DNA of 64,000 nt from Antennarius striatus (lineage: Eukaryota; Chordata; Actinopteri; Lophiiformes; Antennariidae): positions 19,764,501 to 19,828,500 of the forward strand of contig NC_090779.1 in assembly GCF_040054535.1 (NCBI RefSeq), in the 5' to 3' direction. A model generated the notes under the pieces. The model worked only from the letters and a program-made list of their open reading frames with translations, did not search any database and was not told where the DNA came from. Both the position numbers and the translations under genes were made by a program. This document shows positions 55,245-61,809 of the stretch, in pieces (position 1 is the stretch's first letter; each line of letters opens with the position of its first letter).

Positions 55245-61809
<6,565 letters not shown>

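Follow-up and report, generated by a model that had tools for sequence, protein, structure and literature searches.

Introduction

The canonical KDEL-type retrieval pattern of the endoplasmic reticulum (ER) is [KRHQSA]-[DENQ]-E-L (PROSITE), in which, counting the C-terminal residue as -1, the position at -3 is acidic or carries an amide. BiP, Grp94 and PDI are the proteins on which KDEL was originally recognized, and human Grp94 ends in TAEKDEL (PMC8196686). In receptor structures the Asp at -3 pairs with Arg169 in a salt bridge (PMC8248988), a contact that comes and goes in simulations (PMC8276033), and most of the receptor contacts are described as involving the C-terminal Leu and the Glu at -2 (PMC9220330). 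Receptors carrying R169A show no KDEL binding, and Arg169 also captures the carboxy terminus (PMC8248988). The same study reports a dissociation constant of 0.24 uM for HDEL against 1.94 uM for KDEL, His being the stronger residue at -4, and of 14.9 uM for DDEL, which largely fails; it also describes a transient contact between receptor residue 54 and position -5, and its reagents include receptors mutated at residues 50 and 54 (PMC8248988).

Several tails with other residues at -3 have been described. Ala at -3 is tolerated with a modest effect on basal secretion, a LIGSLEL tail with a hydrophobic residue at -3 behaves in a manner consistent with a retrieval signal, and the response was likewise sensitive to substitutions at -5 and -7 of TAEKDEL (PMC8276033). 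The HIEL tail of human CES1 and the HVEL tail of mouse Ces1d are called functional in a review that describes HXEL as "necessary and sufficient", and ERp27 and AGR2 naturally end in KVEL and KTEL (PMC5818367; PMC12781119). Our literature search returned no functional test of a KIEL tail, which is no proof of absence, and the accessible text of a paper on shad hsp90b1 (PMC12564195) yielded no tail sequence. Here we describe a Grp94 gene of the fish Antennarius striatus that ends in KIEL.

Results

An intact hsp90b1 gene

The window, the whole stretch of 64,000 nucleotides that was analysed (C4:19764501-19828500), holds no N and comes from an assembly of 548 Mb in 42 contigs. On its minus strand, from 61809 to 55245, 18 joined exons encode 802 residues in one frame, free of stops and frame breaks. 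All 17 acceptors are AG and 16 of the 17 donors are GT, the lone GC donor following exon 16. The features discussed below are as follows, with coordinates in the window.

55245..61809, minus strand: hsp90b1 coding gene, 18 exons, 802 residues, intact (exon model, PDB endoplasmin, Pfam HSP90)
55654..55809, minus strand: exon 16, with a GC donor (gcaagt) after it (exon model)
55365..55475, minus strand: exon 17, acidic tail ending in EEDDTEET (exon model)
55272..55364, minus strand: intron 17, a GT-AG intron of 93 bases, open in frame along its whole length (exon model)
55245..55271, minus strand: terminal coding exon 18, IIPEKIEL and stop TGA (translation, exon model)
55248..55259, minus strand: KIEL codons AAA ATA GAA CTG, with ATA (Ile, -3) at 55254-55256 (sequence)
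55025..55030, minus strand: AATAAA polyadenylation signal in the 3' UTR, starting at 55030 (sequence)

Aligned over residues 1-795, the joined frame scores 1465.6 bits against a PDB endoplasmin chain (9n9j_y3), well in excess of the 679.9 bits of the top cytosolic Hsp90 chain, and it matches the Pfam family HSP90. Its N-terminus aligns with the start of endoplasmin and, by reading, resembles a signal peptide. Judged by sequence, this full-length Hsp90 architecture, nearest to endoplasmin, places the protein in the Grp94/HSP90B1 family. With respect to gene structure, the GC-AG intron after exon 16 has its donor at 55648-55653 on the minus strand and is the sole one of the 17 with a non-GT donor, and intron 2 contains a 62-base unit repeated in about 1.9 copies with 91% matches (60896-61014).

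A gene of the 5'-nucleotidase family lies head-to-head with hsp90b1 at 63-64 kb and runs in the opposite direction; we take it to be nt5dc3, which adjoins HSP90B1 in human. On the other side, the minus strand carries a tRNA-Trp (CCA) gene at 51586-51657, situated between hsp90b1 and a gene for a type II PKA regulatory subunit (exons with RIIa and cyclic-nucleotide domains, 45743-48480), as well as an HMG-box piece at 37817-38134 that falls under the Pfam cut-off and is presumably hbp1. A search of a viral contig collection found no relative.

The terminal exon and its KIEL tail

The initial annotation had described a last exon joined in phase 0 and encoding eight residues that end in PEKIEL before TGA, with a good acceptor and a polyadenylation signal downstream. 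Both the translation of 55245-55271 on the minus strand (IIPEKIEL and stop) and the 18-exon model agree with it: exon 18 is joined in phase 0, it is preceded by ttattttttctccctcacag, a good acceptor with a strong pyrimidine tract before the AG, and the AATAAA signal follows. Its remark that the residue at -3 lies outside the usual pattern also stands, Ile occupying the place of Asp or Glu. Since intron 17 is 93 bases long and open in frame, even a transcript that retained it would end in KIEL. This intron, a multiple of three and free of stops, translates as a hydrophobic stretch, and its retention would add a membrane-like segment ahead of the tail.

Counting both strands, the window contains four tails of the form Lys/Arg/His-x-Glu-Leu followed by a stop, one of the four with an internal stop, and 0.7% of 20,000 Markov resamples of this region, each 300 bases long, contained such a tail in any of three frames. 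As such a tail is rare by chance here, PEKIEL and its stop are very likely the genuine end of hsp90b1 and not a chance reading. The PDB searches left the last seven residues of the frame unaligned, and the comparison with TAEKDEL is therefore anchored at the end and made by eye; so aligned, the fish tail has Ile at -7 and Pro at -6, where TAEKDEL has Thr and Ala.

Measured against the canonical signal, the tail retains Leu at -1, Glu at -2 and a basic residue of the Lys/Arg/His class at -4, and departs from it at -3, where Ile (codon ATA) stands in place of an acidic or amide residue. It has the non-canonical K/H-x-E-L form at the very C-terminus. The expected KDEL is thus replaced by KIEL; a KDEL tail is typical of the Grp94 family and is not what defines an hsp90b1 orthologue.

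No KDEL-encoding exon or second hsp90b1 was found

The absence of a KDEL-encoding exon, first reported for the following 250 bases, extends much further: between 61850 and 44001 of the window, the minus strand has no Asp/Glu-Glu-Leu followed by a stop. Across the genome, the pattern EKDEL with TAA or TGA, the two stops that it covered, has 18 occurrences, and the reversed control pattern has 12. On contig C4 none of these lies within 4 Mb of hsp90b1, the nearest being about 4 Mb away.

The initial annotation also suggested looking for a second hsp90b1 copy with KDEL, and none emerged from a whole-protein search of the 548 Mb assembly in which the best 40 candidates were scored. A genuine second copy should have ranked among the best-scoring candidates, while a lone terminal exon of 27 bases is too short to be visible to a protein search. 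At least 46 rows were returned, 16 from the gene in the window (81-98% identity by exon), 26 from C19 (39-67%) and one each from C1, C8, C16 and C18. We rejected the C19 loci at 39-67% identity and take them, from this identity, to be cytosolic Hsp90 genes; the C16 row, likewise rejected, is presumably TRAP1-like. C8 and C18 each contributed a short Hsp90-like fragment, and C1 a piece with stops. Such short pieces outside the window (L032 3888-3995, L033 3834-3920 and L034 3232-3561, the last carrying several stops) are perhaps decayed copies of cytosolic Hsp90. On this search of the best 40 candidates, the hsp90b1 of the window is a single-copy orthologue, and with the presumed nt5dc3 beside it the neighbourhood is conserved.

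Receptors and other ER residents in the same genome

Three KDEL receptor genes lie above the family cut-off; two further receptor-like places, on C4 and C12, fell under it and were dropped. Residue numbers are those of human KDELR2. All three receptors share R5, H12, R47, Y48, D50, N60, E117, W120, E127, Y158, R159, Y162, W166, R169 and D177, where for E117, W120 and E127 the alignment overruns an exon edge and the letter within the exon was taken. Besides Arg169, 14 of the 15 other positions checked are therefore kept in all three. The exception is in the C16 gene (G000:C16:7165730-7166621; L010, L014 and L017), which has Val for Ser54. This gene is also more diverged, with 60-86% identity by exon to human KDELR2.

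All three of the other ER residents that were checked end in KDEL. BiP ends in EKDEL (GAG AAG GAT GAG TTG TAG), and two calreticulin-type genes, on C7 and C18, have the tails LKDEL and TKDEL, read within the locus with exons unjoined. Loci on C8 and C10 were dropped as calreticulin candidates because they read into membrane-like segments without a KDEL-type tail; they are calnexin-like. Judged by these genes, Antennarius striatus has an otherwise ordinary-looking retrieval system.

Discussion

The sole hsp90b1 found in Antennarius striatus is intact and, in the reading that we favour, has undergone a real substitution at -3 that turned a KDEL-type tail into KIEL, the protein most likely remaining an ER resident. 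Escaped Grp94 would bind the ordinary Golgi KDEL receptors through its free C-terminal Leu, Glu at -2 and Lys at -4, would lose only the salt bridge from Asp at -3 to Arg169, and would return to the ER. By analogy with the natural tails that have a non-acidic residue at -3, and given the tolerance of this position, we infer that KIEL binds the receptor and that retrieval works, perhaps more weakly, with an efficiency that is modestly reduced. HIEL has the favourable His at -4, so that next to Lys the change at -3 could be more costly. Caution is also due for the residues at -6 and -7 (Pro and Ile), which depart from TAEKDEL as well, changes at -5 and -7 having altered the response elsewhere. 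The ancestor's tail was presumably KDEL or KEEL. To reach ATA, GAA needs two changes and GAT or GAC three; the path GAA-GTA-ATA may have led through KEEL and KVEL, both of them natural tails (PMC12781119), and some paths from GAT or GAC also run through Val or Glu.

Other explanations differ in whether the tail is real, whether it is the one in use and how well it works. An error of assembly or consensus within the A-rich stretch (GAAAAAATAGAACTG), with KDEL as the true tail, would fit the KDEL found on all three other residents checked in the same assembly; starting from GAT, it would involve three adjacent bases, or one G lost and one A gained, beside a run of six A. Such an error, however, would require compensating changes that preserve both frame and stop, and the remaining 2.4 kb of coding sequence has no frame break, in a window without N from an assembly of 42 contigs per 548 Mb; we regard it as rather improbable. 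That the KIEL exon is a minor one, with an alternative terminal exon encoding KDEL or a second hsp90b1 in use, seems very improbable: a lone terminal exon elsewhere would escape the protein search, but there is no Asp/Glu-Glu-Leu-stop for 11 kb downstream and no EKDEL with TAA or TGA within 4 Mb on the contig, and a second gene was not found.

The signal might instead be genuine but effectively weakened, so that a meaningful share of Grp94 is secreted or displayed at the cell surface, possibly with a function. The salt bridge from Asp at -3 to Arg169 is gone, and KDEL itself already binds with fairly low affinity (1.94 uM), DDEL at 14.9 uM largely failing (PMC8248988). Against this, Ala at -3 has a modest effect on basal secretion (PMC8276033), and HIEL, KVEL and KTEL are natural tails (PMC5818367; PMC12781119), which makes substantial leakage unlikely in our view. 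The initial annotation had proposed that retrieval would be weakened or would depend on a receptor of altered specificity. The weakening is possible, given the lost salt bridge, and the receptor part finds no support in the three receptor genes found, whose pockets look conserved. A receptor that co-evolved to match KIEL would have a weak candidate in the C16 gene (7.166 Mb) with Val for Ser54, a residue that touches position -5 transiently (PMC8248988). Yet Arg169 and 14 of 15 other positions are kept in the three receptors found, and BiP and the two calreticulin-type genes still end in KDEL; this disfavours an altered receptor, which we consider scarcely credible. It is also conceivable, at the level of speculation and with low probability, that a weakened Grp94 signal was fixed by selection in this lineage, the chaperone being partly exported or displayed outside cells while BiP and calreticulin were kept inside. 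If true, the set of ER residents would be tuned protein by protein through position -3.

Returning to the favoured reading of a variant signal that still retrieves, KIEL on Grp94 is a non-canonical but plausible ER retrieval signal as far as its sequence indicates, and it probably still works, since close natural relatives of the tag do. A natural KIEL on Grp94, together with ordinary receptors and KDEL on the other chaperones, constitutes a clean test of the importance of -3. Motif filters that demand Asp, Glu, Asn or Gln at this position would overlook an important and genuine resident of the ER.

Comparison with known systems sets this tail among described ones. The protein shares with Grp94/endoplasmin the PDB match over residues 1-795, the acidic tail and the 5'-nucleotidase family neighbour, its start may be a signal peptide, and it differs from human Grp94 in ending in PEKIEL instead of TAEKDEL (PMC8196686). 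With the microsomal carboxylesterases, CES1 (HIEL) and Ces1d (HVEL), it has in common the last three positions, where Ile or Val (-3) is followed by Glu (-2) and Leu (-1) (PMC5818367). These proteins, however, have His at -4 where the fish Grp94 has Lys, and they are enzymes, Grp94 being a major chaperone. ERp27 (KVEL) and AGR2 (KTEL) share with it Lys at -4 and a beta-branched residue at -3, followed by Glu-Leu (PMC12781119); they are different proteins, with Val and Thr at -3 in contrast to the Ile of the fish Grp94. KIEL amounts to the KVEL of ERp27 with one additional methylene.
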